A stretch of DNA of 30,187 nucleotides from Terramyces sp. JEL0728. Its lineage: Eukaryota > Chytridiomycota > Chytridiomycetes > Rhizophydiales > Terramycetaceae. Shown here one piece after another: positions 507 to 29,566 of the stretch. The notes under the pieces were generated by a model. That model saw only the letters and a list, made by a program, of their open reading frames with translations. It was not told where the DNA came from and made no database searches. Location: assembly GCA_027603945.1 (NCBI GenBank), contig JADIIU010000144.1, forward strand, positions 1-30,187. The letters are read 5' to 3'. The stretch's first letter is position 1. Each line of letters begins with the position of its first letter. The translations under genes were made by a program, and so were the position numbers.

Positions 507-963
507 ATGTTTAGAGTGTTCAGAGCTTTAAGAATTACCCCATCATTCAGAACCTACGCTAGTAATTGTTATTTAATCAAGCCCGCAAATACACTGCAGA
601 CCATGAATGGATCTCAATTACAAACGGAATTGGAACCTTTGGAATCACTGATTACGCTCAAACCGCACTAGGCGATGTCGTTTACATTGAAGTTCCATCT
701 ATTGGCGATGCAGTAAAGGAAAAAGATCAAATTGGTGCTGTTGAATCAGTCAAAGCTGCCTCTGATATTTATTCGCCAGTTTCAGGAGAAATCGTAGAAA
801 TCAATGAAAAATTACAGGAAAATCCAGGTCTGATTAATACTTCTCCTTATGTCGACGGTAATTGTTGGTAATATCAGGTTGGATTGCAAAGATCAAGTTG
901 AGCAATGAAGGTGAACTAGATGCTTTGATGGATGAAAAGGCATATGAAGAACACACTAAATAA
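507..963 (+). CDS. GCV3: Glycine cleavage system H protein, mitochondrial (three exons)
   Basis: Exons 507-561, 582-857 and 878-963 encode 138 aa. The H protein carries the lipoyl arm that shuttles the aminomethyl group between the P, T and L proteins of the mitochondrial glycine decarboxylase. The N-terminus ([18 protein letters not shown]) is a basic, hydroxylated mitochondrial presequence. The mature part starts at [10 protein letters not shown]. The lipoyl-lysine motif ESVKAASD is present, with the modified Lys at about residue 76. The C-terminus ([18 protein letters not shown]) is typical. Two 20-nt introns, gtaattgttatttaatcaag and gtaattgttggtaatatcag, must be removed: the first restores the frame between presequence and core, the second joins YVDG to WIAKIK. 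Both start with the same nine bases. The TAA stop overlaps an AATAAA at 959-964. Length is close to the family norm. Confidence 0.95.
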
Positions 964-1589
964 AGAAATTACTTTATTCAATTGCTGGTGTATGGCAATC
1001 ATAGAGATTTCGGCAGTGTCTAAATCGCGTGTTACGGAATCTTTTGCATGGTATCACTTAGTAGCTGGTGCAGTCAATTGCAGCTGCTTTATGGAGTTAG
1101 TTTAGCGAGATAATCAAACGAGAATGCAGGCGCTGCTACTAAAGATTCGATGGGCTGATTAATCATTGGAGAAATGCATCTCATCAATAGATGTACCACA
1201 TGAATATAACTGATGGTCATTGTTCAACTAATGGCGTTTATTAGAGTCTCATATTCTCTAAAACACAACAAAAAATATGGCTAGAATGTGGCTGGACATC
1301 TAATCTCCGGAACCAAACGACCAATCGGAAGGAAATCCAATTTCAAAAAGTAAAGCTGATTTTTTGTCTTATTGCATACACAACTCATCTATAATCAGAA
1401 ATTGACTAAATCAATAAAACCACATGATTCTACTATATTCCTGGAACCAACACGGAGACCAATAGCAATACAATTTTTACTTTTGTGACTCGCCAAATGA
1501 AACCAGCTGGGAAATAACCGGAAACGAATTCAACATCAATATCGGATAAACTAATACAAAAGCCACTCTGTTTTGAAAAAAGTTGCAAA
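964..1589 (+). other. Intergenic region without a supported gene
   Basis: This 626-nt stretch lies between GCV3 and the CCC1-like gene. I see no conserved ORF on either strand, no tRNA and no long repeat. It presumably contains the 3' end of GCV3 and the promoter of the transporter gene. The sequence just before 1590 is A-rich (gaaaaaagttgcaaaATG). Confidence 0.5.
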
Positions 1590-2378
1590 ATGTCTGAAAT
1601 TGATAACCTTGGATCAAGCCAGCAGACTGTCGGAGAAGTCGATACTATCGAAATAGCAGTTAAAAATCCTAAAGATATTTCTGTTGCCTCTCATACAGAA
1701 CCTCATTTCGGCTCTGCAGAAGTGATTCGAGATGTTATTGTCGGTTTATCTGATGGTCTAACAGTTCCATTTGCTTTGGCAGCTGGTTTAGCCACACTTG
1801 AATCATCAAGGATAGTAGTTACAGCCGGTGTAGCTGAAGTAGTAGCTGGATCAATATCAATGGCACTTGGAGGATACCTCGCAGGCTTGTCGGAAATAGA
1901 ACATTATGATTCAGAAAGAGTAAGAGAACAAGTCGAGGTTGATGAAGTGCCTGAAAAAGAAACACTGGAAATATTGGAAATATTTGAACCCTATGGTATG
2001 GACAATGAACAATTGCAGCCATTGATCAACAAATTGCATAGCGATAAGGAAATATGGGTTGATTTTATGATGAAGTTTGAATTGGGATTAGAACGGCCTG
2101 ACCCAAATAGATCTTGGATCAGTGCTTTGACTATCGGTGTATCCTACTTTGGAGGAGGAGTGGTGCCATTATTACCGTATATATTCATTTCTCATGCCAT
2201 GACTGCCTTGATGGTGTCTGCCATTGTCACTGTTGTCGCACTGTTTATCTTTGGTTATGTAAAGTCCATTTTACTTGGAAATGTGCGTCCGTTCATTGGT
2301 GCACTGCAAATGACTGTTGTTGGTGCTTTAGCTGCCGGCGCTGCATTTGGAATTGCAAGTTTATTGCCAAAGCCTTGA
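1590..2378 (+). CDS. CCC1: Ccc1/VIT1-family vacuolar iron/manganese transporter
   Basis: A single uninterrupted frame of 262 aa. The Ccc1/VIT1 family moves Fe2+ or Mn2+ from cytosol into the vacuole. The N-terminal ~45 residues are soluble. A first membrane block carries the family signature (EVIRDVIVGLSDGLTVPFALAAGLA), followed by a second segment (TAGVAEVVAGSISMALGGYLA). A charged cytosolic domain rich in Glu (residues about 105-170) corresponds to the metal-binding domain of plant VIT1. Three further hydrophobic segments follow (ALTIGVSYFGGGVVPLLPYIF, a stretch around ALMVSAIVTVVALFIFGY, and the C-terminal MTVVGALAAGAAFGIASLL), giving the expected five-helix layout. An AATAAA lies about ten bases after the stop. 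Substrate preference cannot be told from sequence. Confidence 0.93.
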   Translation: MSEIDNLGSSQQTVGEVDTIEIAVKNPKDISVASHTEPHFGSAEVIRDVIVGLSDGLTVPFALAAGLATLESSRIVVTAGVAEVVAGSISMALGGYLAGLSEIEHYDSERVREQVEVDEVPEKETLEILEIFEPYGMDNEQLQPLINKLHSDKEIWVDFMMKFELGLERPDPNRSWISALTIGVSYFGGGVVPLLPYIFISHAMTALMVSAIVTVVALFIFGYVKSILLGNVRPFIGALQMTVVGALAAGAAFGIASLLPKP

Positions 2379-2654
2379 ATTTTATAAATAAATTACGTTT
2401 GCATGAACTCTGTGTGTGACGAATATTCTTAATCCTGACGTAGGAGTTCCCTTTCATTTAACCTTGACGGAACCTGTAAATTTGGCAGCTCTTGCAGTTA
2501 CAATTCAGAGACACACAATAGAAACCATCGTGCCGTCGTATGCAGCGACTATGCGCTATAATTCTTGTACTTACGAATTGGTTGCGTCATGATGGCAATA
2601 CACAGGCTCACTCAATTTATTGCAGATAAATTCAAAAAAGAAACCAGCAAGACC

Positions 2655-3131: not shown

Positions 3132-5888
<2,757 letters not shown>

Positions 5889-6888
5889 ATGCCAGCGCTC
5901 GCAGAACCAGTATTAGCACTTCAAATTGGCAATTTACAAAAGCTGACAGTCGACCACGATTTGTCGACAGTGTGGAATCTCTTTACAAAATGTAAAGACA
6001 GTTTAGAAAACGGACATAGGTTAGAAAATTTGTCTTGGAGGTATTTTAATATTTAACAGCAGACTGTGGTATCGCTCCTGTCATCCTCCAGCCAACAAGA
6101 AGCAAATAAATCCAATTTCTTCATTGTCAAAGCCAATGGAAAAAAACTTGAAAGCTGATCTATCAGTGCCAATAATACCACCATTCCAGCAAAAAGAAGC
6201 AGTAAAACCGATAGAAATGAAAGCGCCAACTGTGCAAAACTTTGAAATTGCTGCTGCATCGCTTATGGGACCAGTAGTTCCAGAATTTACTTTGGTTCCG
6301 CCAAGAAGCGTTAAGGCAGATTCAAACATGGTCAAGGTGCCCAAGCCTGCTGTTGCTCCTGTGGAAAACCTGGTCAGACCTGTCCCAACTAGACCTGTTG
6401 CTATCAAGCCGACCTCTTCTGTGGCAGCAAAGCCAAAGAGCAAATCTCCCCCAAAAGAAAAGTCTCGAGCTACATTTTTCATTTCTGAATCCCAATCTAG
6501 TCACAGCACAATCGGATCGTACAGATCAAACTATTCTGACGACGAAGATTCCGATCTAGAGTCTGACATTTCTGGTGATTCATATGTAGAAGCTCCTACG
6601 CTGTTTCTAAAGAACTGTAGAAGCAATTTGCCTATTAAACGAGCTTCCCTACTCTCTGTTGCTATTCAAAGACAGGCATTCAGAAGGTCGCAATCGCATA
6701 ATACCCACATGGACACTCTGCCTCAAGATATCCCTCAACCTATTTATTCGCAAGATATTGACATTTCGCCCTCTCTAAAAGAGAATCTGGCTTGGGATCA
6801 CGCCAGACCGTTCAACACCACTGCAAAGATGGAGGTTGGACGACACATTGACTCTACTCCTATATCTAGTTCTTTTAATTATTGGTAA
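5889..6888 (+). CDS. DUF1752-domain regulatory protein (AreA N-terminal / Reg1 / Mks1-type), no zinc finger
   Basis: Exons 5889-6040 and 6063-6888 encode 325 aa. The N-terminus (residues about 17-55) matches the fungal DUF1752 domain: a DLSTVWNLFTKCKDSLENG segment running into RLENLSWRLWYR. This domain occurs in nitrogen and glucose regulators such as AreA, Gat1, Reg1 and Mks1. The middle is Pro/Lys/Val-rich and probably disordered. An acidic stretch (DDEDSDLESDISGDS) and a later KRASLLSVAIQRQAF segment resemble the DUF3295 region of Mks1-like proteins. No GATA zinc finger is present, so it is more likely a signalling or co-regulatory protein than a DNA-binding factor. The intron is 22 nt if it ends at the second AG of a cagcag acceptor, which restores the conserved SWRLW; use of the first AG (19 nt) would insert one Ser. 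Confidence 0.85.
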
Positions 6889-6998: not shown

Positions 6999-9710
6999 AT
7001 GAAACTGCTTGAATGGACCAGGAATTTGCAGCTCAAATCGTCAGTGATACTGTTCCTACTGCAACTAGTGGGATTATACTTGTTCAAAGAAGGATTTTTA
7101 TTATCGCGGTTGGAGCTACATACCAAGAGCACACTCCCATCCCTGCCAACACGCTACAATAAAACTTTACTGGTAATGATTGATGCCCTCCGTTTCGATT
7201 TCATCAAATATGAGCCAGAATTAAAAACAAACATTCCCCATTACATAAACAAAGTTCCAGTGATACACGAAATGCTTACAACGCAGCCAAGGAACAGTTT
7301 GCTGTTTAGAGGATTGGCGGATCCGCCAACAACTACGCTACAAAGGTTGATGGCAATCGTAACTGGTGCTTTACCTACACTTGTTGACGCAGGAAGTAAT
7401 TTCGAAGGTGCATCGCTCAAAGAAGATAATATACTTGAAAAAATACTAAAGAGAAACCAACGGGTCGTGTCATTAGGCGATGATACTTGGGACAAACTCT
7501 TCCCATCTGGATTCAACGAATCGCACTTTTATCCTTCTTTTGAAGTGTGGGATTTGCATTCGCTTGATAAAGGCGTGTTGTCGCATTTATGGCCGATGCT
7601 AGATAAACCAGACCATGATTGGGGGTTCTTTATTGCCCATTTCCTTGGTGTTGATGTAATGGTTGTTAATATAGCATGCTGGGCATCGGTACGGACCTGG
7701 GCATTATCAAATGGGAGATAAACTTGCCCAAATGGACGGCGTATTGCGTAAATTATTTGATAAAGTCCATAAAGACACATTGGTAATCGTGATGGGCGAT
7801 CATGGGATGGACCAAAAAGGCGATCGTAATTAAATGCTGATATAGATGGTGGAGATTCGGATCCTGAAATGGATGCAGCTTTATTCTTTTACAGCAAGAA
7901 ACCATTGATAGCTGGGACAAAGAGCTACGACGATTCGCTCAAACAAATTGTACAAGGGACAAAGGAATTGGACGATGGGTATGAAAAGTTTTCTGAATGG
8001 AAGAACTATCGGACAGTCCAACAAATAGATCTGGTACCTACGCTATCTTTGCTAATGGGATTAAACATTCCATTTGGCAACCTTGGCTCCATCATTCCGG
8101 AATTCTTTACTGATTCAGACTTGCATTCGCTACTAGATGCAGTTCGATTGAATGCTCAACAAATGGATACCTACTTGAATGCATATTCTACATTACGAAA
8201 AGATGCTAAACAAGCATTCAGCAAAAGCCGTAATTTGTACAAAAAAGCCAAAGAAATAGATGGTGGAGGCGACAAAAAGTCCATGGTTGCATCTTATTTG
8301 GCGTATACGCATTTCTTGCGACATACCCTATTAATTGCCAGAAATATTTGGTCTCGGTTTGAACCTACTTTAATGGTCATGGGGATAGTGATTCTGGTAA
8401 TGTCATTTCTATCGAGCATTACAATGTATTTCAAAAACTTGGAAGCCAAGAAACCTTTGATTATCGGCGGATTCAGCTCAATAATTGGATTATTTTCTCC
8501 AATTAGATCATTCTTTTATCCAGGACACGATCTGGATTCGTTAACCATCAAAGCATCCCATGAAATGCTATTTTTTGCTGCTTTATCATTCAGTATCGCG
8601 CAGTTCTTTCACCTGAAAAGCATTCACTTTGACCTGCTCAGCAAATACTCTTTACTAGGAATCGTTGTTGTTGTACTGTATGCCAGCTGTGTAGGTTCAG
8701 ACAGCTTCACAATCTTTGAAGATTTCACTATCTTGCATTTTGTTCAGTTCATCCATGTTGCGATGCTCTACATGTCGTTCAACCTAAAGAGTAAAAAAGT
8801 GGTGATGCAGAGGCAAATCTTGGTTTGTGCTGTAATTGCTCGACTCGTGTCTTTTGTCACATTATGCCGACCTGATCAAGGTCCTTACTGTGTAGCTACA
8901 TTCAATGCGTCCCCAACGAAATCAATTTCAGCTGTTTGGTCGCCATTAGTATTGATTCTCCTGAACATTATAATTGTTTATGATGTCAGGAAAACCAAGA
9001 AATCCCGCCAGTTTGCAAACATAGCGACACTTTCAATTGCATCAGTAACTATTTATTGGACGCTGGACACCTTTGAAGCACACAACCTCCTACCTTCCAC
9101 ATTCATCAAGAACATTTTCGTGTATATTTATTGGCCAACAATTGCATATTTATTCTACACAACTCCAAAGACTGGCCAGAACATGCTGGTCTTGTATTAT
9201 GTTTTCCTCTCCATGTTCCAGAAACCAATGGGAGGAGTTGTATTATCTTTGGGATACATTTATTTCCTCAGTTTAAAAGCCATTCAACGACACTGGCCAT
9301 TGAATTACTTGATTTATCCACAAGGGTTTTTGATTGGACAGCTGATATTCTATTCCACTGGACATCAAAACACTTTGCCTTCCGTGCAGTATGATGTTGG
9401 ATTTATTGGCTTATCTTCAGCCAACTATGTCCTCTCGCCAATATTCATCAGTTTAAACACTTTTGCAGGCCCGATTTTTGGATCAGTAGCAACAAATAAT
9501 TGGAAGATTCTACGAATGATTAGTGGAACTGCACTCACAACAACTGTTATTTTCACATGTGTTTTTTCAAGACACTCTCAAGCTTTCAGAGTATGGGGTC
9601 CTAAATTCTTGTTCTTTGCTGCTGGACATACATTTAGTGGGTTTCTAAACATTTTAAATGGATTTGTCGAGGTTGAAGACCAGTCTGAAGTTGATCTTAA
9701 AAATGAATAA
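6999..9710 (+). CDS. GPI13: GPI ethanolamine phosphate transferase 3 (PIG-O / Gpi13)
   Basis: Exons 6999-7655, 7675-7825 and 7846-9710 encode 890 aa. Gpi13/PIG-O is an ER membrane enzyme that adds ethanolamine phosphate to the third mannose of the GPI precursor. There is an N-terminal signal-anchor, then an alkaline-phosphatase-superfamily luminal domain: metal site LLVMIDALRFDF, the PIG-O-specific PPTTTLQRLMAIVTGALPT followed by DAGSNF, FLGVDHAGHRYGP, and GDHGMDQKGDHGGDS. A long C-terminal part has many membrane segments. Introns of 19 nt (gtaatggttgttaatatag) and 20 nt (gtaattaaatgctgatatag) fall inside the two conserved metal-binding motifs, so the joins are unambiguous. I chose the ATG at 6999. 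AATAAA overlaps the stop codon (9706-9711). Several secreted proteins in this window are predicted GPI-anchored, i.e. clients of this pathway. Confidence 0.96.
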
Positions 9711-9754
9711 AAGAATGCAAGTTAGTTTCCTGCGAGGCTAAAGTTGGCAAAAAG

Positions 9755-9828
9755 TGATTCCATCCAGGATCGAACTGGAGACCTCAAGCATGTTAAGCTT
9801 GCGTGATAACCGACTACACCATAGAACC
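9755..9828 (-). tRNA. tRNA-Val(AAC)
   Basis: A complete 74-nt cloverleaf on the minus strand. The acceptor stem is GGTTCTA paired with TGGAATC (G-U pairs allowed), with discriminator A. A D-arm (GTGTAGTCGGTTATCAC), an anticodon stem CAAGC/GCTTG with loop TTAACAT (anticodon AAC), and a T-arm CCAG-TTCGATC-CTGG are all visible. There is no intron. The first 50 nt are identical to the tRNA at the right edge of the window. Confidence 0.96.
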
Positions 9829-10004
9829 GCCGAAAAACGAAATTTCAGGAAGCAGCATCAATGGTTTGTTACTAGTTTTAATTGCGATGGGAGTTAATAG
9901 CCTGGCACCAAGTAGGAAAGATTGAGTTTCCGTTCAGCACCAGATTGCAAGGACAACTAATTTGGGCTCTACCATAACTTTTGTTTCACATTTTTCCTGT
10001 AACC

Positions 10005-10893
10005 ATGGATAGAATTGCAGAGCTGTTTATTATATTGGAAGACTTGTTCCGGGACACAAAAGGAGTTCAAGAAAAACTAATTGCACTAAAACCAACCTGG
10101 ACTTTACCCACTGATTTGGCGCTCTTGCTACCCCAAATTGCAAGAACTTTTGGATTGCTTTCAGATTTTGACAAAGGACATGAACTAGTGACTGAAGCAG
10201 AGAAATTGCTGGATCAAGTCCCAGAATCCAATATCAAAGCCATCATTGTCGTCAGAATTTCTTTGGAAAGGGGACGATTGTTCCGGTCATCTGGTAAACC
10301 AAAGGAATCTATTCCGTTTTTCCAACAAGCATGGGATAAAAGTATTGGTGTTGAAGGAGCAGACTACTTTTTGGTGGATGCAGGACATATGATGGCATTG
10401 GTAGCTGAACGAGCGGACCGACTGAAATGGTACGAAAATAGTATAGCAGCTGCAGAAAAGAGTGATGGTAAGTTTTGTTGATGTAGACAAGAAGGCAAAA
10501 GGATGGTTAGGCGCATTATACAACAACTCTGCCTGGAATGAGCACGACATGGAGAATTTCGAAAAAGCATTGGAATTATTCCAAAGAGGACTTGATTTTA
10601 GAATTAGAAACAGCGACCCTGAACAAACAATCAATATTGCCAAGTGGTCGGTTGCTAGAGCACTAAGATCATTGAAAAGATATGATGAAGCACTGAAAAT
10701 ACAACAAGAATTAGCTAAAAATCCAAACGATGGCTATGTCTTTGAAGAACTTATGGAGTTGTACATTGCGTTGGATATGAACGACCAAATCAAGCCTGTT
10801 GCCAAGCAAGCGTACGATAAGCTTTCAAAGGATGATTGGTTTGTCAAAAACGAATCAGCGCGGTTTGAAAAGATTAAATCCTTTGCAGAATAA
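10005..10893 (+). CDS. Tetratricopeptide-repeat protein
   Basis: Exons 10005-10467 and 10487-10893 encode 289 aa. The protein is helical throughout, with TPR-like pairs. The clearest are ALELFQRGLDFRIRNSDPEQ and the RSLKRYDEALKIQQELAK region, preceded by PKESIPFFQQAWDKSIG. The stretch KGWLGALYNNSAWNEHDMENF is the type seen in small stand-alone fungal and bacterial TPR proteins, usually described only as TPR-containing. Its partner is unknown. The 19-nt intron (gtaagttttgttgatgtag) joins KSD to DKKAKGW. I use the ATG at 10005; the frame is open a little upstream but without ATG. The TAA stop is embedded in AATAAA (10889-10894). Confidence 0.85.
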
Positions 10894-11006
10894 ATCCCCA
10901 ATGTTGCGGGCGTCAAATTGAGCCATTTTATTTACAAATTAATCACTAAAGTGCAGCTGGATCACTTGAACAAAGTACATTTTTATTAAACAAGAAACAG
11001 ATCCAC

Positions 11007-13229: not shown

Positions 13230-14360
13230 TTATTTCTTCAACAATTTTCCGGCTTCCAACAACCCAAGCGGAGCAACTTTTAGAAACGAATTCTTCTTTT
13301 CAGGATTAGTAACTTGCAACTCAGGAAGACCAGCTTTACGTCTAATCAAGCCATTCTGTAACAACAGTGTTTGTACTAAAGTCGCGATCGCACCTACGGC
13401 TGTATAAATAAAGACACCACTGGCCAGATTGTAAAAGAATGGGATCGTACCCACAATCAAGAATCTAAAAATATTCTTTGTAACAGGCGATTGGTTTTGG
13501 GCTACAGAGGCGTTCAATTCCATAGCAGCAAGCATGCCTACTTTAAAATAAACTTACCTACAGCCGAGGCTATTGGAAGTATCATGTATGGATCAGGCAG
13601 AGTCAAATCTTGGATCCAAAAGAATCCAGATGTAGATAATCCAGGAACAGGTAAACTGCACATGTTGCGTAACGCTAAAAAGAAACTGATAAACACAGGT
13701 GCTTGCAGTAACCCCCATAATCCAGAGAACGGGCTGACACCTGACATTAATTCCACTCACCTTCTTTTTGGAATACTTGCATTAGTTTTTGTTGTTCTTT
13801 GGCTGCTCCCATCGCATCTCCAATACTTTTCAGCCTGTTCATCTCAGTTTGAATTGGTTCAATCTGTGGTTTAACATTAGACATTTTTATCATTGCTCTT
13901 TGAGTTTTAATTAGTATTGGAAAGAGCAGTACACGGGCAAATACTGTACTGACGGCAATTGTAGCCCACCTAGTATAAGTACCAAATAATATTATTAATC
14001 AGTATAATATAGTTCTTACCATTCCATTCCAGTGGTGACATGAACCAATTCCAGGATTTGTTGAATCCAGCCCACCGGAGTGTAATTACTGCCCAGACCC
14101 AACAGTTTCAAGTCTCCGATATTACTGATGCTTGTTAACTTTGTAACGACTGTATCTACTAATTCGCCATCGACTAATTCAACTGGAGGCTGCACTGGTA
14201 ATGGTTCTGCTACTGGCGCAGCTGGCGGTACTGTTGCAGCAGTCTTGCTCCAAAAACTCCTATTCAATCTCGATCCAGTAACCTGAGCCCTCGCCGATAA
14301 TTTTGAATTTAATCCAACTTGAATTCGACTGTTTAAAATATTCCTGCTGAATTTGAACAT
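13230..14360 (-). CDS. OXA1: Oxa1-family mitochondrial inner-membrane insertase (four exons)
   Basis: Exons 14360-14020, 13969-13761, 13740-13558 and 13537-13230 encode 346 aa. Oxa1 inserts mitochondrially made and some imported proteins into the inner membrane. A basic presequence ([20 protein letters not shown]) and a Pro/Val-rich linker precede the YidC/Oxa1 core. Visible core motifs are [40 protein letters not shown], the [21 protein letters not shown] segment and the C-terminal [20 protein letters not shown]. Two introns are 20 nt; the first is 50 nt, joining GMEW to WATIAV, and is the only long intron I could confirm in the window. The C-terminal ribosome-binding tail seems short. AATAAA overlaps the stop. 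The start lies 17 nt from the ATG of the divergent gene. Confidence 0.93.
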
Positions 14361-14377: not shown

Positions 14378-15194
14378 ATGTTGCTGGATAATTTCCTTCA
14401 GTTCCACCCCACAAACGAAATCAAGCAGAATTACTTTCAATTCAAAACGGTTAAGCGGAATATACTCAACAATTACACCTTTGCCTTGAATTGCGGTATG
14501 TATGCTAGCAATTTCCTTTTATCTTATCCTATTGGCATGTATACGATGGTCAGTTTGCTTAAACCTGGGCAGTACTTTACCTTGGACCATTCAGTGTTTG
14601 CTTGGATCAGAAGGTAGTTGCGTATTAACCAGATATGCGTCGTTGTCGTTGCATATGGCCCAAGGAGTGATTACAAGCACATTGGTGTCTTTTGTTATAC
14701 CAGATGGAACACTTCAAACTATTATAATGCATTTCCTAGTGTTTCCCATTTATAGATCAAAAATATTACTTTCATATGGCAGTGAAGTAACTTTTTTCAG
14801 TGCATTCACCAAAAACTTTGATATCCCGATACCGTCGTACATGCTCTTGTTTGGGTTGTTTTACCTTCGCAGTGTATTAGCGGAATCACTAACAACCTTT
14901 GTCCACAAACACCTTTCGCCATACTTTTTCAAAGAACGGTCGTTGGAGTATGGGAAAACGTGCCTCAGTATAGTTAGTTATGAAATTGTAGAGTGGATTA
15001 TGACTCCGTTGGACTTTTATCTCATGTATAGTAACTTGTACGGGCTGGATAAATTTGTTGGGTTTTTGGGGTCAAAGGGATTCAGGCAGTTGCCAAATGT
15101 GCTGTTTGAACTAGCGCTGTTCAAAAGTATGGTTTTTGCATGTGTTGGTGAGTTGGGGTATTGGATATCCAAGTATTTTAGCAATAAATTTTAA
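14378..15194 (+). CDS. Unknown membrane protein, possibly a diverged mitochondrial-carrier-like protein
   Basis: Exons 14378-14613 and 14633-15194 encode 265 aa; the 19-nt intron gtagttgcgtattaaccag joins AWIR to RYASLSLHM. The protein has several moderately hydrophobic segments (ASNFLLSYPIGMYTMVSLL, ITSTLVSFVIPDG, IPSYMLLFGLFYLRSVLAE, LFKSMVFACVGELGYWI). Two segments, HFLVFPIYRSKILL and EWIMTPLDFYLMYSN, resemble weak versions of the Px[D/E]xx[K/R] signature of SLC25 carriers, and the second is followed by a carrier-like YGLDKFVGFLGSKGFRQLP. Non-transporting relatives such as Ugo1/MTCH proteins diverge in this way. This is a hypothesis only. The start could be further downstream. Divergent to OXA1. 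Confidence 0.65.
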
Positions 15195-16749: not shown

Positions 16750-19019
16750 ATGAAAATCAATCAGCCAGCGCATTCATTGTCACGACCAATAATAGGAAAT
16801 GGATCATTTTTGCTGGCATATCAGCTAAAAAACAAACATGTACTAGTAATCGGGGGCGGAAGAGAGGCTGCAATCCGAACCTTTTTTGCCCTTGATGCAT
16901 CAGCAAATGTTACTGTTATTGCACCAAAAGAAAATAGACATCCAGCTGTAGAACAACGGATAAACCAAGGATCGGTTCGTGTATTGGAGAGAAAATTCAA
17001 CGACAATGACCTGGAATTGAGGTGGGATGACTCTGCTGACGGGCATGCCGTTGATATGGTTTTATGCACAATTGATGATCACCAAGAATCACGCAAGATC
17101 GCCTTGCTGGCTAGGTCAAAGAGAATACCTGTAAACTGCGCAGATATCCCAGGTAGTTATTCTTAATTTCAGAATTATGTGACTTTTACTTTATGGCACA
17201 GTATCGTAATGAGGAGCTACAAATTGCAGTCTCGACAAATGGAGGAGGACCAAGACTGGGAGCTAGGATTAGAAATACTATAGTTGAAAATCTAAATCCT
17301 GCAACACCAAAAGCTGTTTCGGCAGTGTCTAAAGTCCGGGCTGGAATTAGAGAAATTTCAAGTGGAAATTCTGGTGAAGAGATCAAGAAGAGGATGGGGT
17401 GGGTAACTAGGTTTTGCGATACTTGGTCAATTGAACAACTTGCTGGAGCCAACGATCCTAGAAAGATTGAGCAGATTCTCATCGACTTTGGAAAAGGAAA
17501 AGATATACCAACACCACCAGCGACAAATACCAAAGTTGCATATTTGAATGCTAATCTACCGCCTTTTTTAACATCGTATTGGTGGTGTCCAAGTTCCATG
17601 GGGGTTTTTGCTTGGATCAGGGCTGCAATTGGATATGCGTACATGATGGCAGTCCAAATAGCTTACCTGTTCTATATTCATTTTAAACTGTTGCTGGCGG
17701 TACGAGGCATTAGCGGAGAAAAGAAGAGCGTCAAAATCAAAGAAACCAGTGATAAACGCGGGGTAGATAACACAGAAACTACAAACCCAAAGAAATTAAA
17801 GGTAGGGGAGGCTTCAAAAGCAACAGTCGGAACTGGACTCAGAGTGGTAAATGCAGAAACCGAAACTCTACCAGAGATTAGCATTGATCGCTCCACCAGT
17901 CCTGTCAAGAAAACTTCAAATAGCCAAAGCACTCTAGCCCAAATTCAAACTTTGGATCAAGGAACATACAACGACATGTATGATACTGAAGAAAAAGCAA
18001 CCAGCCCGTTAAAGCCCTGTTCAATTGGAACAGAAACCGAAAAAGTGGATAAACAAGACAAAGAAACTGCTATATCTCCTCAAACTGCAAATGATGCAAC
18101 TACCTCGATAGATGAATTAGATCTAGCAAAGTCTTATTTATCCGAAAAAGCAGCTGGAACAGAAATTGAGCGAGCAGACAAGGAATCTCAGAACGTCCCT
18201 GATATTCTAATTGATCAGTCAACCAGTCCAGTGAAAAAACAACATGCAGATACTCTTAGTTCGCCAATCTTTGAAGATGCTTTTGGCCGAGGCGGTTTTG
18301 CTCAACCAGGAAAAATGTATCTAGTTGGAGCTGGTCCTGGAAAACCAGAATTGTTGACCATTGAAGCGTTTAATTTACTTAAAACCGCTGATTATGTTGT
18401 ATCAGATCGCTTGATTCCCCAAGAAGTCCTGGATGTTATCGACCCAACCAAATTAGAACTGTCATCTTTCAAAGTAGGTGGAGCCTCAGACAAGGCGCAA
18501 GACGAATCAAACCAAAAATGTTTGGATGCACTTAGAGAAGGCAAAAGCGTTGTCCGATTGAAAACCGGTGATCCTTTTGTTTATGGCCGCGGCGGCGAAG
18601 AAATCTTATTCTTCCGTGAACATGGGTTTGAAGCTGCACCAGTTTCTGGCATATCTAGTGTGCTTGGCTCCACATTGGCTTCGAATATCCCTGTTACTCA
18701 TAGAGGTGTTGCAGACCAAGTTTTGATTTTGACAGGTCGCGGTCAAAAAGGAGCTTTCCCGTCAATCCCAGAGTTTGTAGAGACAAGAACCACAATCTTT
18801 TTAATGGCACTGGCTAGAATCCAGCCGCTCATTGAACTGCTATATGTTCACGGATATCCAGATTCTTTGCCTTGTGCAATTATTGAAAAAGGCGGTTGGG
18901 TGGTCGGACAAAAAGTATGTAAAGGCACGTTGGCTACCATCAATGATCTCCAATTAGCTCAAGGGATTGATAACCCAGCAATGTTTGTTGTAGGAAATTC
19001 TGTTGTCGCTCTTGACTAA
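16750..19019 (+). CDS. Siroheme synthase: fused precorrin-2 dehydrogenase and uroporphyrinogen-III C-methyltransferase
   Basis: Exons 16750-17152 and 17173-19019 encode 749 aa. The protein combines a Met8-like N-terminal half with a Met1/SUMT C-terminal half, giving siroheme for sulfite (and nitrite) reductase. The N-terminal part has a NAD-binding fold (HVLVIGGGREAAIRTFFAL), the NCADIPELCDFYF segment, and LQIAVSTNGGGPRLG. Residues about 282-310 (IGYAYMMAVQIAYLFYIHF) are hydrophobic, a probable membrane segment. A charged, probably disordered linker (about 315-505) holds two STSPVKK repeats. The SUMT domain begins near 516: MYLVGAGPGKPELLTIEAF, VVSDRLIP, RLKTGDPFVYGRGGEE, and IIEKGGWVVGQK. 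The 20-nt intron gtagttattcttaatttcag joins CADIP to ELCDFYF, a conserved motif, so the join is secure. Fusions of this order are known in other fungi. Confidence 0.95.
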
Positions 19020-19062: not shown

Positions 19063-19823
19063 ATGGATTTAAACCTGAATAGTTGTAAAAAGTTTTATGT
19101 TCCAGATTCTTTACCCAAACAGAAGCATTTCCGAATGACAAAGCCAATATCCAAACTGGCGCCTTCGCTCCTGCAAGACTATGACAAGTTACCCAGAATA
19201 CTGAAACCACCAGAAAAATCAAATAGATATAAAATAATTATGCAAGCAGACTATAAAAACAGAGCTCCGTTGAAACCAACCATTTGGGAAGGTGCAACAT
19301 CAATCAGTTACAAGCCGGTGGAAAAGAAATTCACAAGTATATGCTCGCAAGCACGAATAAATACACCGCCAATCAAACCAGATGTATTCCACGACGTGAT
19401 TAAAGTCGACCCAGTGAGGGAAGAATTACTAAACAAACTGTCATTAATCAAAGTAAAAAAGTGTGTCCCGTTGCAACATAATCGGATTTTACATGAAGCA
19501 AAAGTTGCGAATTCGTTGATGGAAAGATTACAGTCAAATACCACTATGCCTTGGCCCGGGCTAGATCCCAAACTGTTGAAGACGAAAGCAACCCCAATTC
19601 AAAACACAGAGTCTACTGCCACACTGATTGAAGAAACGGTAAACAAGAGCTAATATAGCGGGCTGAAACTCCACTCGAAAAAGTATTTGAGCTGCTAGAT
19701 GAATTCACTGGAAAACGAGTACTAGCAATGTACGATGATGATTTCGAAGAGGTACCACGCATTAATTACAGTACTCTGATAGCAACTGTTCAACACCAAG
19801 GACAAAATATGACTGCGATCTAA
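19063..19823 (+). CDS. Unknown, probably disordered protein
   Basis: Exons 19063-19638 and 19659-19823 encode 246 aa; the 20-nt intron gtaaacaagagctaatatag fits the same class as the others. The protein is basic and proline-rich at the N-terminus (KPISKLAPSLLQDYDKLPR, APLKPTIWEG) with a probable helical middle (REELLNKLSLIKVKK, RILHEAKVANSLMERL), a PWPGLDPKLL motif, and an acidic C-terminal segment (TPLEKVFELLDEFTGKRVLAM). No domain, signal peptide or membrane segment is seen, so it is likely nuclear or cytosolic. M25 is an alternative start. It begins 43 nt after the siroheme synthase stop on the same strand. I do not recognise it. Confidence 0.7.
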
Positions 19824-19981: not shown

Positions 19982-20731
19982 AGCGCATAGACATGTTTGA
20001 GCGCACGCCTCCAGTTTTTAGCTTTATGTTAACAGGACATACAATTGCTTCCAAAAAGAAAAAGGAAGAGAAAAAGGAGGAAAAAGAGAAATCTCTGTCT
20101 GAAAAAATCAAGAAAGTCTATGGCGATGTAAGTTTTATTGACCAAGGTTGAAAAGGCTCTAGAACCTCATAAACCGCTTGTAGATTTTGCAAAGAAATAC
20201 GGGTGCTCCAAAATTACGATTATAGCGGCGCTACTACTGGTACTGATCTTTCATACCCTGATTGTCTTTGTATTTTTCATTTCATGTAGAATGTGCAAGC
20301 GGGAATTTTAACTGATTTGCTAGCCCATGTATATCCAGCTTACATGTCATTGAAATCAATCGAATGCGACAAGGATAAATCCAATTACAAGCAATGGCTA
20401 AGTTACTGGGTTATTTACGGGATGCTGGAACTTGTCGAAAATTTCAATGAAGCACTAATGAAAATGTCACCATTCTATTACACTCTTAAAACTGCTGTTG
20501 TGTTTTGGCTCATGCTGCCTAGGACTCAGGTAATCAAATCTAACCCAGGGGGCACTGTTTCTTTACAATACCATCATGAAACTGTGGATTCCTAATTTTG
20601 ATCGTATTGCAAAGGTGTTTAGCGAAAAGAAAAAGGAGGAACCAAAGAAGCAAGAACCAAGTACTGAAGTCCGGCTGAATCAATCCAAAATTGGGTCTGG
20701 AGGGAAAGGGACAAAGTTAAAGTATTTCTGA
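19978..20731 (+). CDS. YOP1: Yop1/REEP-family ER membrane-shaping protein (four exons)
   Basis: Exons 19978-20127, 20147-20269, 20290-20529 and 20549-20731, all joined in phase 0, encode 231 aa. Yop1/REEP proteins insert wedge-like hairpins that curve tubular ER. The TB2/DP1/HVA22 domain is clear: ITIIAALLLVLIFHTLIVF, DLLAHVYPAYMSLKSIE, KQWLSYWVIYGMLELVENF, MSPFYYTLKTAVVFWLMLP and TQGALFLYNTIMKLWIP. Introns are 19 nt (gtaagttttattgaccaag), 20 nt (gtatttttcatttcatgtag) and 19 nt (gtaatcaaatctaacccag). The N-terminal ~45 residues include a KKKKEEKKEEKEK stretch absent from typical Yop1, and the C-terminus is Lys-rich. Alternative starts at M6 or M17 would shorten the N-terminus. Convergent with the V-ATPase gene. 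Confidence 0.92.
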
Positions 20732-20827: not shown

Positions 20828-21747
20828 TTAAGATAGCGCAACGTATTCAAAATCTTGAACTTTTGAGGACATCAACAGGCCAATAATTAGCCCGAATAGA
20901 CCAATAATAGACCCAAAGATTTCAATAATCAATACCTATCATTAATCGGGGCTACTTTGACAAATAGTTGGGCATCAGCAGCGTCAGCTATGGCACAAGT
21001 GGACCCGGTGATTCCTACGCATACCCCGCAGAATAAGTTGGACAGTCCAACTGTTAGTCCGGCCCAGAATAGCGCATATCCAGAGAAATAAGTAGCTTTG
21101 CTAAAGATCTCGCCAGGCTGGATTAATAAAGAAATACTTGTCCCATTTCTGCCAAGTTGAGTTTGGATGAAAAGATGATTGCAATAATAACACCATAGAT
21201 TGCTACAACTTCACAGAAAATAATACTACGTTAATCGCGTGTTACCTAATCAGATTCTTTGTTCGAATTCTTGGTGCTCTGACTGCAGCTCCGATTAAAC
21301 TGGATCCAGTGATATAGATACCCCTATATTAACGATCTGTACCATGCAGCGCCTACGACTGACAAACCGACAGCCAAACTAGATCCCAATAGCGCCCACA
21401 TGTAAGGTGTGGTATCGGTTAGAAACTTTCCGACGTTGAACATCTCTCCGTTTCCAGTAAATAACATATTTAATAGTACAATCACAATAAATAAAGTGAA
21501 AGTGTACGCAATAACAGCTTCTTTTGAATAATACATTCTTAAATCGATCAATGGTGAAGGTGAAAAAGTAACTGCTTGTTGTTCGTTTTTTTGTAATTCG
21601 TCAAGTTTAACTCCTAGTCTTGTGTTTAAGTCTTCAAGTGGAATTTCAATGTGAGATTCTTGTGGTGTCCTCCTTCTACGAGAAATGGTTGAGATGGTTT
21701 CAAAAAATTCCACTCAAATTAAAAAGAAACTAACGCGACTCTTGCAT
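20828..21747 (-). CDS. VMA16: V-type ATPase proteolipid subunit c'' (six exons)
   Basis: Exons 21747-21735, 21712-21343, 21323-21246, 21225-21138, 21117-20956 and 20935-20828 encode 272 aa. Subunit c'' is part of the proton-carrying ring of the vacuolar ATPase. After a hydrophilic N-terminal extension of about 70 residues there are five hydrophobic helices. Conserved parts include [39 protein letters not shown], the proton-binding Glu at about residue 159 in [11 protein letters not shown], and [19 protein letters not shown]. Five introns of 22, 19, 20, 20 and 20 nt are needed; four interrupt conserved helices and each join restores the family sequence. The first exon is 13 nt and rests on splice logic only: joining gives MQES-LEFFETIS in frame, as no in-frame ATG exists otherwise. 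AATAAA overlaps the TAA stop. Confidence 0.95.
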
Positions 21748-22458: not shown

Positions 22459-22869
22459 TCATTCATCCTCGTCCCTTTTAGCTTTTGCTTTCTTTCCCTT
22501 CTTTTTCTTGTTCTTCTTTTTCTTTGGTTGTGCACTTCTTTTGGTTAACACATCCTCATCGGTTTCAGTTGAATCAGCTAAGAGAGATTGGCCATCAGCA
22601 GATTCTAGCGACTCAGAAACAGACTCGTCAGCATCCTCTGGGGTATCATCGCGCTTTGCCTTGACTTTCTTTGCCTTCTTTCCTTTTTTACTCTTCTTGC
22701 CTTTCTTTCCCTTCTTTTTCTTTGGTAGAGCAGCACGCTTGACCAACATATCGATTTGAGATTGCGAGATATCGCGGACTACCAAGTCTTGGTCAAATGA
22801 CACAGGCGAGGCAGAAACAAAAGCAGATAATGCAAGGATATTAACAATTGATTTGAGTGAAAACTTCAT
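22459..22869 (-). CDS. Secreted lysine-rich protein with two Kex2-type sites (family member 3)
   Basis: 136 aa, no intron. The signal peptide MKFSLKSIVNILALSAFVSA is clearly related to those at 11420 and 12409. LVKR (residues 42-45) is followed by a KKKKGKKGKKSKKGKKAKK block; an acidic spacer rich in Glu, Asp and Ser (about 74-106) is followed by a second dibasic site LTKR (108-111) and a second KKKKNKKKKGKK block, ending in AKRDEDE. Cleavage at both sites would give two cationic peptides separated by an acidic spacer, like a small polyprotein precursor. Function unknown. It lies about 10 kb from its paralogs. Confidence 0.8.
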   Translation of the reverse strand: MKFSLKSIVNILALSAFVSASPVSFDQDLVVRDISQSQIDMLVKRAALPKKKKGKKGKKSKKGKKAKKVKAKRDDTPEDADESVSESLESADGQSLLADSTETDEDVLTKRSAQPKKKKNKKKKGKKAKAKRDEDE

Positions 22870-22893
22870 ATTGCTGGTTAGATGGGACTTGAC

Positions 22894-23162: not shown

Positions 23163-25971
23163 TCATAGTTTAATTGACCATTCATCGCCAATTAAGATCC
23201 CAGGATTCTTTATCGTGACTGTAAAGCTACCACCAACTTTCTTTACTCCAAAGTGGAGATCCTTGCCACTGTGCTTGATGTCTGCAGGCTCTTGGTTGAA
23301 TCCTATAATAATGATTCTTTCCACTTTGATATTGAATGCGCCTTTGACATTCATTCGAACAGCAAGTGGGACATGCTTGGCTGATAGAGTGTTGTCTTTG
23401 AATTCAAATTTACTATTGATATAGTCTCCTGACTCATATTGGAAGGAAGATCCGTCGTCAATGTAAATTGAACCAGATGCTTTCAATTTGGAGTCAAGAG
23501 CGACAAAAATGGTATACGGATCATTCTTCATCAATTGCGAGCTTCTGCGTTGTCTATCCTTGCGAGGAACGATAGAACCCCCTTTAATAAAGACTGGGAT
23601 CTTGTCCAATGGAGTAGCAACTTCATAATGACTGTTCGTTGGTAGTGCAGCTTCAAATGTTTCATAGTCGTACCAATTTGCTTCTTTTGGAAGGAATACA
23701 TCAACTGAGGTTTGGCCAGCTTTTGAAACTGGTTTTACCAAGAGTGCAGAACCAAACATGTACTGGTCGTCCATTCCAAATGTCTCTTCGTTATTAGGAA
23801 ATTCTTGCATCATTGATCTAGGTTAGGGACTCTTACCGCATAACTGGATTACCAGTCAAGTGAGCTTCTGCAAACAAGGTGTAAATATATGGTAAAAGCT
23901 TGTATCTGCGAGTGACTGCCTCACGGATCAAACTAGTGTATGGTTCGCCGAATAGCCATGGTTCTCTTCTTTTGGTGTCGATGTGGGCATGGGCTCTAAA
24001 GAATGGCTGTAAAGCACCTAATTGATACCAACGGAGTAATAGTTCTGGATCAGGATTTAAAAAGAAACCGCCAACGTCGGCTAACAATTAACTATAAATA
24101 ACCTCCACAGAACGTTATACCTGCAATACTAACAGAAAGCAGCATAGGAATAGAGATTGATAAATGCTCCCATTCGCCAGTATTATCTCCAGTCCAGATT
24201 GCGCCGTAGCGCTGAGTACCAACAAAGAAAGCCCTGGATAAGATGAATGGCCTGTCCTTGCTATCACTCCTCTTCAAATGCCCTTCGTACGTAGATCTAT
24301 GTAGCAACATGCCGTAAGTGTTGTGCACTTCTCTGTGTTCCACGCTTTCGAAATGAAGTAAATCTTTTGGCATGGTTATTTCAGGACCAGTAAAGACAGA
24401 TGGCTATGTTAATAAAACCTACTTCATTCATATCGTTCCAGGTATACAACGAAGGAGTGGATCCTTCATAGTTGCTAAACATAAATTGCTCTGCCCAATA
24501 CTCTCTCCCTTTTGGATTAGTGTAATCAATCCAGTTGGAGTCGCCCGGCCAGCAGTGTCCGTCAAACGTTGATCCATCAGTGTTTCTTACGAATATATCC
24601 AATTCCTTTGCCTTTTTAGAGACAAAATAACTATCATCTCTTTTGATATGCGGGTCGATAATTGTAACCTAGCTCAAAATAAAAGTACCATCTTTCTTCC
24701 CTTGCTTGCAATTTTGTTTTGCATCTCAGTCGGGTTAGGAAACTTTACTTTATCCCAGGTAAAGTATCTTTTTCCATCAGTATGTTCAATATCAAGCCAT
24801 AACACATCATAAGGAATATCATAGAGGTCAAAGTTTGAGTCGACTTCCAAAGCATCTTCTTCAGTATTGTAATTCCAACGACATTGATGGTAGGTGGTTG
24901 CAAATTGCTGCGGCAATTGAGGACGTCCAGTAATTGTGGTGAAGGAGTTGAAAATGTCATTTTGAGTAGGTCCTAGGAAAAAGAATAAATCAACAATCCC
25001 TGATTCAGACATCCAGTGGGTTTTTACTGAAGGCTCGCTTGATTTTTCAACGTCAATCCACATTTCTGCAGAATTCAGCCATAAAACCCCAGCGCTGGAT
25101 CCTACTTTATGAGACAGCATGAATGGGACTGCTCCATATAAAGCCATTGGGTTATCAAGCTCGTATTCAAAGACATCCAGGTTGTATAATCTATATGGCT
25201 CAGTGTAATCTGCTCCTTCACCTCTAGTGGTTTTTAAGGAATAGGATGAAGCGTGTTCTGGAATCCCAAACACATGCTTTGAACCGGGAAAAGTGATATC
25301 AAATCCGATAGAAGATGCACCTGGTATCAAGTAAAAGTACCTCTTGGCTTGGAATCAGTCTTTCCTCCAAAAGATTCAGCTCCTACATCCTTTCCAATCT
25401 TTTCTTTGATTTCATTCAACTTTTCGTCTCCCTCCCCTTCCTTTACAGCTGCAAACTCAGGAACTTTGTTTTCAGTGCGATATGGCTCGTAGTAAAAGTA
25501 GCCGTTCTTGTTGAATACAATTTGAGATTTTCCATTGACTTTGAGTTCAAATGAAAATGGTGAAGAACTAATGAGCAACTCATTGTTTCCGAATGTCACT
25601 ACCTCCAATCCCTCTTGCTTTTTGTGATTGTAGACTGCTGTTTCAAGGGTTTCGATTGAGAATTTTGCTTCATAGCGCGGATGTACTGGAGACTTTTCAT
25701 GTAGTCTGAACCGAACGTTGTTGTCAGCCAAGATATTGAATTCAAAACTAAACGCATCTCCAAGAGAGTCAACTTGGCCGGTGATTGCATTTGGCGCATA
25801 ATCAATTGATTTCAAAGACCAATCCATCTTGCTGTTTGTAGTATCAACATAATCCGCAATTGCCTGCTGACGAACACAGAATGCTGACTGACTGCAAGTT
25901 TTAAAATCTGAGCGTTTCACCATCACTATAGGGCTGATTGAAATGAACCAAATGAGCAGCTTTAGGATCAT
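23163..25971 (-). CDS. ROT2: ER glucosidase II alpha subunit, GH31 family (six exons)
   Basis: Exons 25971-25341, 25320-24689, 24668-24423, 24403-24103, 24080-23837 and 23817-23163 encode 902 aa, a normal length. The enzyme removes the two inner alpha-1,3-linked glucoses from N-glycans in the ER. A signal peptide ([18 protein letters not shown]) precedes [14 protein letters not shown], typical of this subunit. Catalytic motifs are [12 protein letters not shown] (nucleophile Asp near residue 500) and [12 protein letters not shown] (acid/base Asp near 576); [20 protein letters not shown] and [18 protein letters not shown] follow. Introns are 20, 20, 19, 22 and 19 nt; one splits the motif right after WNDMNE, another splits FCGADVGG, making the joins secure. 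I start at the ATG at 25971 to begin with the signal peptide. AATAAA abuts the stop. No beta subunit gene is in the window. Confidence 0.97.
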
Positions 25972-27629: not shown

Positions 27630-27946
27630 TTTGATGCTGAACCAAAGTTTGGAAGAATTTAAGGCTCTGATGGAAAATCTCGATTTGGTGGCGAAGGCAG
27701 GCTGATTGCATTAACTTGAGTTTGAGCATAATTTTCACTACTATTGCCGGACTAAACTGGTGGAAAATTAAATAGATGAATCAAACCACCACAATGCACG
27801 TATTTCAAGTGTTATGCTCGATGTAAAGGGACGATTTCTGGGAAAACCAAATCGGCTAGCGGAAAAACCGGTGGAAAATCCATTGACTATTTTTCCCTTT
27901 GCACAACTTTAAAAGGGCGAAAAGATCTCAAACAACACTAATTCAA
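27630..27946. other. Intergenic region with promoter of the GPI protein at 27947
   Basis: Two copies of ggtggaaaat lie at 27759-27768 and 27870-27879, and a TATA-like tttaaaag at 27908-27915 is 32-39 nt before the next ATG. No gene is seen. Confidence 0.45.
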
Positions 27947-28825
27947 ATGAAAACTGCTATTCTCCTGATCGCATCCGCCTTTGCTGCTGAACCAACAGCT
28001 TTCTTCAACACTGGCCTTAGCTCCCAAGTATATCCAAGAAACGATGGCTGGGCAGAAGATAAGCCAGTCAAAGTGTATACATTTACCAACTCTATGAACG
28101 GTACTGCTCAGACTGGCTTGGTGGCTGCCCCAATTTACGTTTTCAGACGCGATTCTGATCCAAAGAGCACTCCAGTGCAAAAGAACTTGATCCCTGTTGC
28201 TCCAGGCGACCCAGGATACTCTGACTTGTGGAATGTTACGGTTGTGACTGTTCCGACAAGCGTAACCGATGTGATTACTTCCTACTCTCAATTGTCTTCC
28301 TTAATCAGTTCAAAGCAAGTAACTTTGACATATCCAAACCTCCTCGTCAACTGTCCTGTTGTTCATCAAAACTCTACTTTGGAAGCTCCTAGTGATGCCA
28401 AGGATGTAGTTGGCTATTACAATGGCCAATTAGTCCACTATTTTGACTTTGGCGTAAATGGACAGGGAAATGGAAACAATCTCTTGGAAAAGGTTTACGT
28501 TATTCTTGATTCTGCTGGCCAACCTAGTGGTAATCATGTATTCCCTGGCATTCCTGGCGAAGATGGATACACTGAGTTCTGGTATGTAACTACAGTCACC
28601 ACTAAAGCAGGTTATGTAGCAAACACCATCACCAACTCTGGCGCAACTTCTCAAGGAACTCAAAATGTACCAAACCCGCTAAAAATTGTAAACTGTCCCG
28701 TCGTTTTTGTTGGAAATGCCACTAGTCCAACTGGCGCAACCACAACCATGATGGGATCAACTAAAAATCAGGCTGCGCAGTACGCTCCATCATTATTCGT
28801 TGGATTGCTGGTATTTTTGCTCTAA
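27947..28825 (+). CDS. GPI-anchored surface protein with two internal repeats
   Basis: 292 aa from the ATG at 27947, which begins the signal peptide MKTAILLIASAFA; an upstream in-frame ATG at 27899 would bury it. The mature part contains two related modules, each with a VYVxxD/RDS strand, a PGxPGxxxYSDLW or PGEDGYTEFW motif and a following VTxVT strand: NLIPVAPGDPGYSDLWNVTV and, later, HVFPGIPGEDGYTEFWYVTT. Each ends in an LLVNCPVV or LKIVNCPVVF segment. This module is familiar from fungal secreted and cell-surface proteins of unknown function. The C-terminus is a GPI signal (APSLFVGLLVFLL after a Thr/Ser-rich stretch). No intron. Poly(A) signal AATAAA follows the stop by a few bases. Confidence 0.82.
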   Translation: MKTAILLIASAFAAEPTAFFNTGLSSQVYPRNDGWAEDKPVKVYTFTNSMNGTAQTGLVAAPIYVFRRDSDPKSTPVQKNLIPVAPGDPGYSDLWNVTVVTVPTSVTDVITSYSQLSSLISSKQVTLTYPNLLVNCPVVHQNSTLEAPSDAKDVVGYYNGQLVHYFDFGVNGQGNGNNLLEKVYVILDSAGQPSGNHVFPGIPGEDGYTEFWYVTTVTTKAGYVANTITNSGATSQGTQNVPNPLKIVNCPVVFVGNATSPTGATTTMMGSTKNQAAQYAPSLFVGLLVFLL

Positions 28826-28892
28826 AATAAACTCGTTCATTTCTATTTCATGTGACATTTGAGCAACAAAACGGTAATTTTTTTGACTAATT

Positions 28893-29566
28893 ATGGTTGA
28901 CGACCCAGTAGAAATAATAGGAACATTTATGGATATGCTACGACAGCCGAGTTTATCAGCTAGAACTATTCAAAAGATCAGCGAGTTTGCCTATCAACAC
29001 TGCACACTGTACGACGGCTTATTTTCAGGATTGATCGAAGTACTGAAGCAACAGTCAATACAAAAAAGACTAAATGTATTTTATACCGTAGATAACATCT
29101 GCAAGAACAACCAGAAATACCAGTTTGAAGGATACATTGAGCAAACGCAGCTGTACCTTGACGAACTGGTGAATCTTGTTGTCGAAAGACCGGTACAAGG
29201 AAAGATTGAAAAGTGCGTACTAACCAACGCTCATAATGTCCGTAAAGTATTGACGATATGGAAATCCAGGGATATCATCACAGAAAAACAATTTGAAACA
29301 CTAAATTCCATGTTGACCAGCCTATTAGATTCACAAACGTATCTTTTATTAATAGTAGGAGTAATAAGGATATGTTTTGGAAGCGAGTTGTTGAAGACCG
29401 GGATAAACAAAAGAAGCATAGGGAGGAGAGTTGGTATCAGCCATCGTCAATGGATGGCAATCAAGAGTTCAAGAGAGCTTGGGATAAAGCCCATCCATTT
29501 TCTACCAATGACTATGAACTATTCAAAAAATACAGATTGAGCTATGATCCAATAAAAGCGGAATGA
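28893..29566 (+). CDS. CTK3: CTD kinase I gamma subunit (Ctk3-like, CID domain)
   Basis: Exons 28893-29338 and 29359-29566 encode 217 aa. Ctk3 is the non-catalytic subunit of the CTDK-I complex (with Ctk1 and Ctk2), which phosphorylates Ser2 of the RNA polymerase II CTD. Residues about 1-145 form a CID-like helical domain (IIGTFMDMLRQPSLSARTIQK, LNVFYTVDNICKN, HNVRKVLTIWKSRDIITEK). The C-terminal exon has the Ctk3-typical MFWKRVVEDRDKQKKHREE. The intron is 20 nt (gtatcttttattaatagtag); an AG three bases earlier would give a 17-nt intron and insert one Arg. Confidence 0.88.

Follow-up and report, generated by a model that had tools for sequence, protein, structure and literature searches.

Introns of 19 to 22 nucleotides as the probable standard intron of a chytrid fungus, Terramyces sp. 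JEL0728

Ultra-short introns that are standard for a genome are known from heterotrichs, nucleomorphs, and mikrocytids (PMC10245619). The nucleomorph of the chlorarachniophyte Bigelowiella natans holds 865 introns of 18 to 21 nucleotides (nt) (PMC6461891), the heterotrich ciliate Stentor coeruleus has introns of 15 to 16 nt (PMC9505925), and 224 introns of 16 to 17 nt are given for Mikrocytos mackini (PMC10245619). Among fungi, the mean intron of Cryptococcus neoformans is put at 56 or 63 nt (PMC11913375, PMC8476143); a survey of 644 fungal genomes cites Cryptococcus, with its mean of 63 bp, as relatively short (PMC8476143), and a 2025 paper applies the term "ultra-short" to introns below 60 nt, with a small population below 40 nt in C. 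neoformans (PMC11913375). Here we describe GT-AG introns of 19 to 22 nt in the fungus Terramyces sp. JEL0728, found on a contig of its draft assembly, C144, which in its whole length of 30,187 nt is the window of this study. Terramyces is a soil saprobe, JEL0728 is placed in Chytridiomycota, Rhizophydiales, Terramycetaceae, and the assembly comprises 15,016,339 bases in 231 contigs. The best named relatives of its spliced ROT2 and VMA16 proteins come from Boothiomyces, of the same family, where OXA1 also has a relative. The homologues of ROT2, VMA16, and OXA1 speak against an origin in Saccharomycotina, which the yeast names of the genes might suggest, and this origin was rejected. We conclude that the tiny introns are very probably U2-type (major-type) spliceosomal introns, shrunk to near the physical floor, and the standard intron of this organism.

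A first-pass annotation of the window had proposed that such introns are used genome-wide. This was borne out on a sample of 230,187 nt out of 15.0 Mb, made up of 200 kb from two contigs plus the window, to which the tests below refer, and by one pattern count over the whole genome. We applied an iterated hidden-Markov gene finder that accepts only GT...AG introns, allows lengths of 10 to 200 nt at equal cost, and contains no motif. It called 115 introns, 65 of them at 19 to 22 nt (10, 28, 16, and 11, respectively), with none at 18 nt and one at 23 nt. The same finder run on six control dinucleotide pairs returned 104 to 117 "introns" each, with only 2 to 11 at these lengths. As the coding model was iterated on GT-AG calls, it could favor such calls; before iteration, 29 of 66 introns already fell at 19 to 22 nt, compared with 1 to 5 for five control pairs. 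Most of the tiny calls show, close to their 3' end, a TTAAY-like motif that the search had ignored. With a motif-aware finder, 158 of 209 introns fell at 19 to 22 nt (34, 80, 29, and 15).

The same lengths stand out when reading frames are disregarded altogether. Donor and branch/acceptor matrices built from 63 unique calls were used to count, for each spacing up to 80 nt, the motif pairs on either strand. At 19, 20, 21, and 22 nt there were 47, 82, 36, and 9 pairs, with 5 at 18 nt and 2 at 23 nt, against a background at 30 to 80 nt that averages 6.2 pairs per length and reaches 14 at most; dinucleotide shuffles gave 2 to 6 pairs per length. Removal of the training introns left 140 of the 174 pairs (41, 63, 30, and 6). 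Relative to gene models, 135 of these 174 pairs lie in sense, 7 in antisense, and 32 between genes, whereas pairs at 23 to 80 nt divide into 153 sense, 119 antisense, and 65 intergenic (Fisher p 9e-19 for the sense/antisense split of the two sets). Counted across the entire assembly, one narrow 20-nt pattern was met 489 times and its backward control 23 times. By rough estimate there are about 10,000 to 12,000 tiny introns genome-wide (10,300 and 12,300 from two calculations), where both figures rest on the sample's 158 tiny introns and the second additionally on only 6 with the 20-nt pattern. The assembly is a draft in many contigs, and the segments might be taken for sequencing or assembly indels within continuous genes. 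Random indels, however, would share neither GTA...TTAAY..YAG at fixed spacing nor a 135:7 sense bias in genes, and both Boothiomyces VMA16 models, discussed below, are altered exactly at the position of a Terramyces 19-nt intron; we regard the probability of this explanation as close to negligible.

The anatomy of the introns is correspondingly narrow. Among 156 unique tiny introns, a set that takes in motif-aware calls and is thus biased towards the motif, the branch A lies at +14 (80 introns), +15 (64), +16 (10), or +17 (2), and is followed by a tail of 4 (2), 5 (71), 6 (76), or 7 nt (7), so that 147 of the 156 tails measure 5 or 6 nt. The near-fixed branch position and short tail of the described ultra-short-intron systems are thus found here as well, and a branch A mostly at +14 or +15 with a tail of 5 to 6 nt accounts for the lengths of 19 to 22 nt and the sharp lower edge at 19. 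The donor is mostly GTA, often with T at +5 or +6; GTAATT is the commonest form (29 of 156) and GTAAGT occurs in 7 of 156. The branch motif is TTAAY-like, the tail usually ends in YAG, leaving scant room for a pyrimidine tract beyond the branch A, and the introns have 30% GC.

Variation between two gene copies bears on the same question. Contigs C199 (L037) and C111 (L038) hold near-identical stretches of about 3.1 kb, with 3,072 of 3,119 aligned columns identical, which are perhaps haplotypes or a recent duplication. In one gene on these stretches the two copies of an intron, of 21 and 20 nt, differ in length by a single T. Apart from this T, the surrounding open frame (about L037 1243-1674) differs by two substitutions only, and no further indel occurs until after its stop codon. 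With the intron removed, both copies read identically to the stop; with it retained, one runs into stops and the other is frameshifted. Elsewhere in the assembly, two arms of about 980 bp form an inverted duplication with 98.6% identity (G000 C5, about 8123-9102 and 10449-11428), and each arm contains the same tiny introns as the other.

A further possibility is that the tiny introns are merely one size class and that many longer introns were overlooked. One intron of 50 nt does occur in the window (OXA1 intron 1), the 209 calls include 14 simple ones of at least 24 nt, a few of them at 45 to 51 nt like OXA1 intron 1, and the search covered introns up to 300 nt and motif spacings up to 80 nt. 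The motif spacing counts, however, have no second peak at 23 to 80 nt, and 34 of the 48 calls of at least 24 nt begin or end with a tiny intron, or do both, compared with 8% of random segments, so that most are probably merged tiny introns. We consider a large overlooked class of longer introns extremely unlikely. Avoidance of 21-nt introns was also entertained and rejected: the first-pass annotation lists none, and the window has two motif pairs of this length, on the opposite strand to YOP1 or its upstream side, yet 29 of the 158 tiny introns in the sample measure 21 nt. Among introns with known phase, in-frame stops occur in 27 of 27 at 21 nt, 20 of 34 at 19 nt, 50 of 80 at 20 nt, and 8 of 15 at 22 nt. 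As six further 21-nt sense motif pairs are read through as exon, compared with two pairs at 19 nt and two at 20 nt, ascertainment is a likely cause of the 27 of 27.

In the window itself, all 27 proposed introns are GT-AG at their listed positions, nine of 19 nt, 14 of 20 nt, three of 22 nt, and one of 50 nt. They had been said to be required by the reading frames, and in each of the 13 genes concerned the open frame indeed becomes longer once they are removed. If they are kept, 12 frames end clearly early, and CTK3 reads 215 amino acids instead of 217, with a different end. Of the 27 junctions, 19 lie within matches to a family model or close homologue, that of CTK3 joins two domains of one family, and seven rest on frame and motif only.

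Junctions in three genes were compared with homologous proteins. The five introns of ROT2 (minus strand; 25321..25340, 20 nt; 24669..24688, 20 nt; 24404..24422, 19 nt; 24081..24102, 22 nt; 23818..23836, 19 nt) are all crossed without gaps in an alignment with Boothiomyces P0001, which is 87% identical, and the chytrid proteins P0002, P0004, P0006, and P0013. In VMA16 (minus strand), intron 2 (21324..21342, 19 nt) is gapless against Kappamyces P0125 and Batrachochytrium P0130 and P0131, the models of both Boothiomyces being damaged at this point; introns 3 (21226..21245) and 5 (20936..20955), both 20 nt, are gapless against homologues; and intron 4 (21118..21137, 20 nt) is gapless against Boothiomyces P0121 and P0122, in what is a loop of variable length in other homologues. 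Intron 1 of this gene (21713..21734, 22 nt) is the least certain, sitting in an N-terminal extension missing from the Boothiomyces models. In OXA1 (minus strand), the 50-nt intron 1 (13970..14019), the sole longer one, gives a gapless junction against OXA1 of Boothiomyces sp. JEL0866 (P0241), and introns 2 (13741..13760) and 3 (13538..13557), of 20 nt each, are gapless against both P0241 and the deposited Terramyces protein P0242.

Other junctions fall inside Pfam matches of the spliced proteins: residue 111 of GCV3 within the GCV_H match 20-137 (intron 2, 858..877, plus strand, 20 nt), residue 43 of SFA1 within ADH_N 34-159 (4139..4157, minus strand, 19 nt), residue 220 of GPI13 within Phosphodiest 197-266 (intron 1, 7656..7674, plus strand, 19 nt), residue 135 of a siroheme synthase (MET8/MET1-like) within NAD_binding_7 22-142 (17153..17172, plus strand, 20 nt), and residue 172 of YOP1 within TB2_DP1_HVA22 107-182 (intron 3, 20530..20548, plus strand, 19 nt). 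In the DUF1752 (GATA_AreA) gene, the junction at residue 51 falls within a PF08550 match at 28-55 that spans the whole profile (6041..6062, plus strand, 22 nt); the tandem acceptor CAGCAG would also allow a 19-nt form ending at the first CAG, and it was the 22-nt form that was run against Pfam. The weakest of the 19 is that of a TPR protein (10468..10486, plus strand, 19 nt), at residue 155 within a TPR_12 match 140-193, as no single TPR stretch passes on its own. Removal of the CTK3 intron (29339..29358, plus strand, 20 nt) brings the CTK3 domain (4-130) and the CTK3_C domain (156-205) into one frame.

Besides VMA16 intron 1, the junctions placed by frame and motif are all on the plus strand. 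GCV3 intron 1 (562..581, 20 nt; motif scores 2.5/2.8) joins at residue 19, where the GCV_H match begins at 20, and GPI13 intron 2 (7826..7845, 20 nt) joins at residue 270, directly beyond the Pfam match. YOP1 intron 1 (20128..20146, 19 nt) lies outside the Pfam match, and YOP1 intron 2 (20270..20289, 20 nt) is placed by frame, with a weak branch motif and an acceptor score of 0.05. The remaining two belong to open reading frames 14378-15194 (intron 14614..14632, 19 nt) and 19063-19823 (intron 19639..19658, 20 nt), whose spliced proteins have no Pfam match.

Deposited proteins of this and related chytrids reflect the tiny introns in different ways. Substitutions and the N-terminus aside, the sole difference between Terramyces VMA16 and the models from Boothiomyces lies at the site of the 19-nt intron, where Boothiomyces macroporosus is without SVVGAAW and JEL0866 has C in place of WGIYITGSS. 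Forcing the Terramyces intron to 40 or 43 nt reproduces both models, and a 76-nt choice fits neither. The simplest reading of these sequences is that Boothiomyces shares the tiny VMA16 intron and that the gene caller could not place it. The deposited Terramyces OXA1 (P0242, 207 amino acids) is 100% identical to the OXA1 of the window (13230-14360) and begins at residue 140 of the spliced protein, so that the residues ahead of the 50-nt intron and those surrounding it are absent. As the deposited OXA1 models cross both 20-nt junctions correctly, some tiny introns are already annotated in public records, with no comment on them in the papers among the literature matches listed; a gene-caller limit near 20 nt is our guess for the difference between OXA1 and VMA16. 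The VMA16 homologue P0149 of Globomyces sp. JEL0801 diverges to VSILPV... directly after LFVK, where Terramyces VMA16 has its last intron, and looks as though it read through into an intron. Gene models of related chytrids can thus be wrong at tiny introns, and since the Boothiomyces models lack conserved residues just as a forced 40- or 43-nt intron would have it, fungal intron surveys may have missed this size class.

Inspection of spliceosome genes, a check suggested at first pass, found SF1, U2AF65, U2AF35, and Prp8 encoded in the genome contigs. The U2 small nuclear RNA (snRNA) at C70:14443-14635 (140.2 bits) is canonical, its GUAGUA branch-recognition region matching the Rfam consensus identically. 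The U2AF35 gene was matched in four pieces. In six-frame translation, unspliced U2AF65 gave a U2AF_lg match of 251.7 bits and a separate piece of 27.9 bits; with four introns of 20, 20, 19, and 19 nt removed, it gave a single match of 334 bits, compared with a cut-off of 310.3. A search for RED_N yielded no candidate in Terramyces, and as the control was likewise without a match, absence does not follow. Two sets of U6 candidates were discarded: sub-threshold matches on C199 and C111 fall in a protein gene that contains an intron and is present in two copies, and a pattern match on C59 is coding-like by eye, with no Rfam match at E<=1 within its 3 kb. The segments might be explained otherwise than by splicing, and very short gene interruptions of that non-splicing kind exist elsewhere. 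Splice-site and branch motifs at fixed spacing point instead to splicing, as do the encoded U2 RNA, SF1, U2AF65, and U2AF35; the segments are also AT-rich, and one of them tolerates an indel. We hold such an explanation to be highly unlikely.

Motif-free finding, spacing, strand bias, homology, and the indel between copies agree, and they support tiny GT-AG introns as the standard size in this fungus. Several observations weigh on the other side. That the segments are excised is deduced from DNA sequence alone, and 7 of the 27 junctions of the window lack support from homology. The motif-free finder recovers 9 of the 27 introns of the first-pass annotation, and is thus insensitive, and the motif-aware finder recovers 19. 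Pair counts are slightly elevated at two smaller spacings, 13 nt (9 pairs, against 5 in shuffles) and 14 nt (15 pairs, against 6), and strong pairs at 19 to 22 nt also occur outside sense position, both between genes (32 of 174) and in antisense (7 of 174). Among the machinery, a zf-U1 gene (52.4 bits against a cut-off of 22) with a Met/Pro/Gly-rich tail is probably U1C, and the same model also scores above the cut-off in an Escherichia coli control. Two attempts, one of them at E<=10, gave no Rfam match to U1 snRNA, and U6 snRNA was not found by Rfam and pattern search; in neither case does absence follow.

How introns of this size might be removed can be considered against human data. Human extracts need about 50 nt between the 5' site and the branch site, with splicing abolished at 46 nt, and the estimated requirement of the human B complex is about 52 nt (PMC6692369). 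Given the 14 to 15 nt present here, U1 would have to leave before full docking of U2, or the early complexes would have to be rebuilt; as a hypothesis, we favor sequential occupancy. Most likely, an ordinary major spliceosome would excise the tiny introns by intron definition. The branch motif would be read by SF1 and U2 and the adjacent AG by U2AF35, and U2AF65 may use the T-rich stretch 5' of the branch site or chiefly bridge SF1 and U2AF35. U1, U2, and U6 would act in turn, not side by side: as U1 and U2 cannot occupy 14 to 15 nt together in the geometry of the human complexes, U1 would yield the 5' site to U6 either ahead of U2 docking or during it. Tentatively, and as a proposal that may well fail, we suggest that the spliceosome of Terramyces (and probably Boothiomyces), with SF1 and both U2AF subunits, no RED detected, and introns of 14 to 15 nt to the branch site, abandoned simultaneous occupancy by U1 and U2 along with the geometry of the human B complex, U1 handing over to U6 before full docking of U2. 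Stentor splices at 10 to 11 nt, and the answer proposed there lies in poorly conserved parts of branching factors (PMC9505925).

The window has a few other features. It ends inside a second copy of a tRNA-Val(AAC) gene: its last 38 bases, 30150-30187, equal 9779-9816 of the gene at 9754-9828 exactly, so the assembly probably broke at the repeated tRNA. By reading, small proteins at about 11015-11420, 11916-12410, and 22460-22870 (minus strand) and at 15750-16373 (plus strand) have a signal-peptide-like start and long lysine-rich repeats, and the first three seemingly have an N-terminal part in common. An intergenic short tandem stretch at 4975-5060, also noted by reading, has CTCATCTCATA-like units.

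The comparison with nucleomorphs and some ciliates made at first pass holds, with mikrocytids (16 to 17 nt; PMC10245619) to be added. The first-pass annotation knew of no fungus with about 20 nt as its standard intron size, and none is reported among the literature matches listed, which leave preprints and most subscription papers outside; nor is JEL0728 treated in any paper among those matches. If true, a fungal genome working at 14 to 15 nt would allow tests of how small an intron can be within the animal-fungal branch, near the best-known spliceosomes. Judged by their length in the genome sequence, the Terramyces introns appear to be close to the smallest known in any organism.

Microsporidian introns come in sizes down to the low twenties. 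Microsporidia are fungal relatives and resemble Terramyces in having short introns, but they have few per genome and a reduced spliceosome (PMC10245619), whereas the tiny introns of Terramyces run to thousands. C. neoformans is likewise a short-intron fungus with a major spliceosome, although its introns are about three times longer on average. The B. natans nucleomorph comes near in its almost equal narrow size range and in having tiny introns as standard; it differs in being a relic endosymbiont nucleus with no obvious 5' motif described past GU, whereas in Terramyces the nucleus is fungal, the branch motif is strong, and the 5' signal is GTA. Stentor shares the near-fixed branch A, the tail of about 5 nt, AU richness, and a GTA start, but has its branch A at +10 or +11 without a strong consensus and introns in 18% of genes, compared with mostly +14 or +15 and a TTAAY consensus in Terramyces. 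M. mackini is alike in narrow size and common sequence motifs and unlike in its intracellular parasitism, its small number of introns, and its strongly reduced spliceosome; Terramyces has an estimated 10,000 introns at least and retains early recognition factors. The relic or parasitic, reduced genome of nucleomorphs and mikrocytids is not what is found in Terramyces, where tiny introns occur in a genome of 15.0 Mb that has kept SF1 and U2AF.

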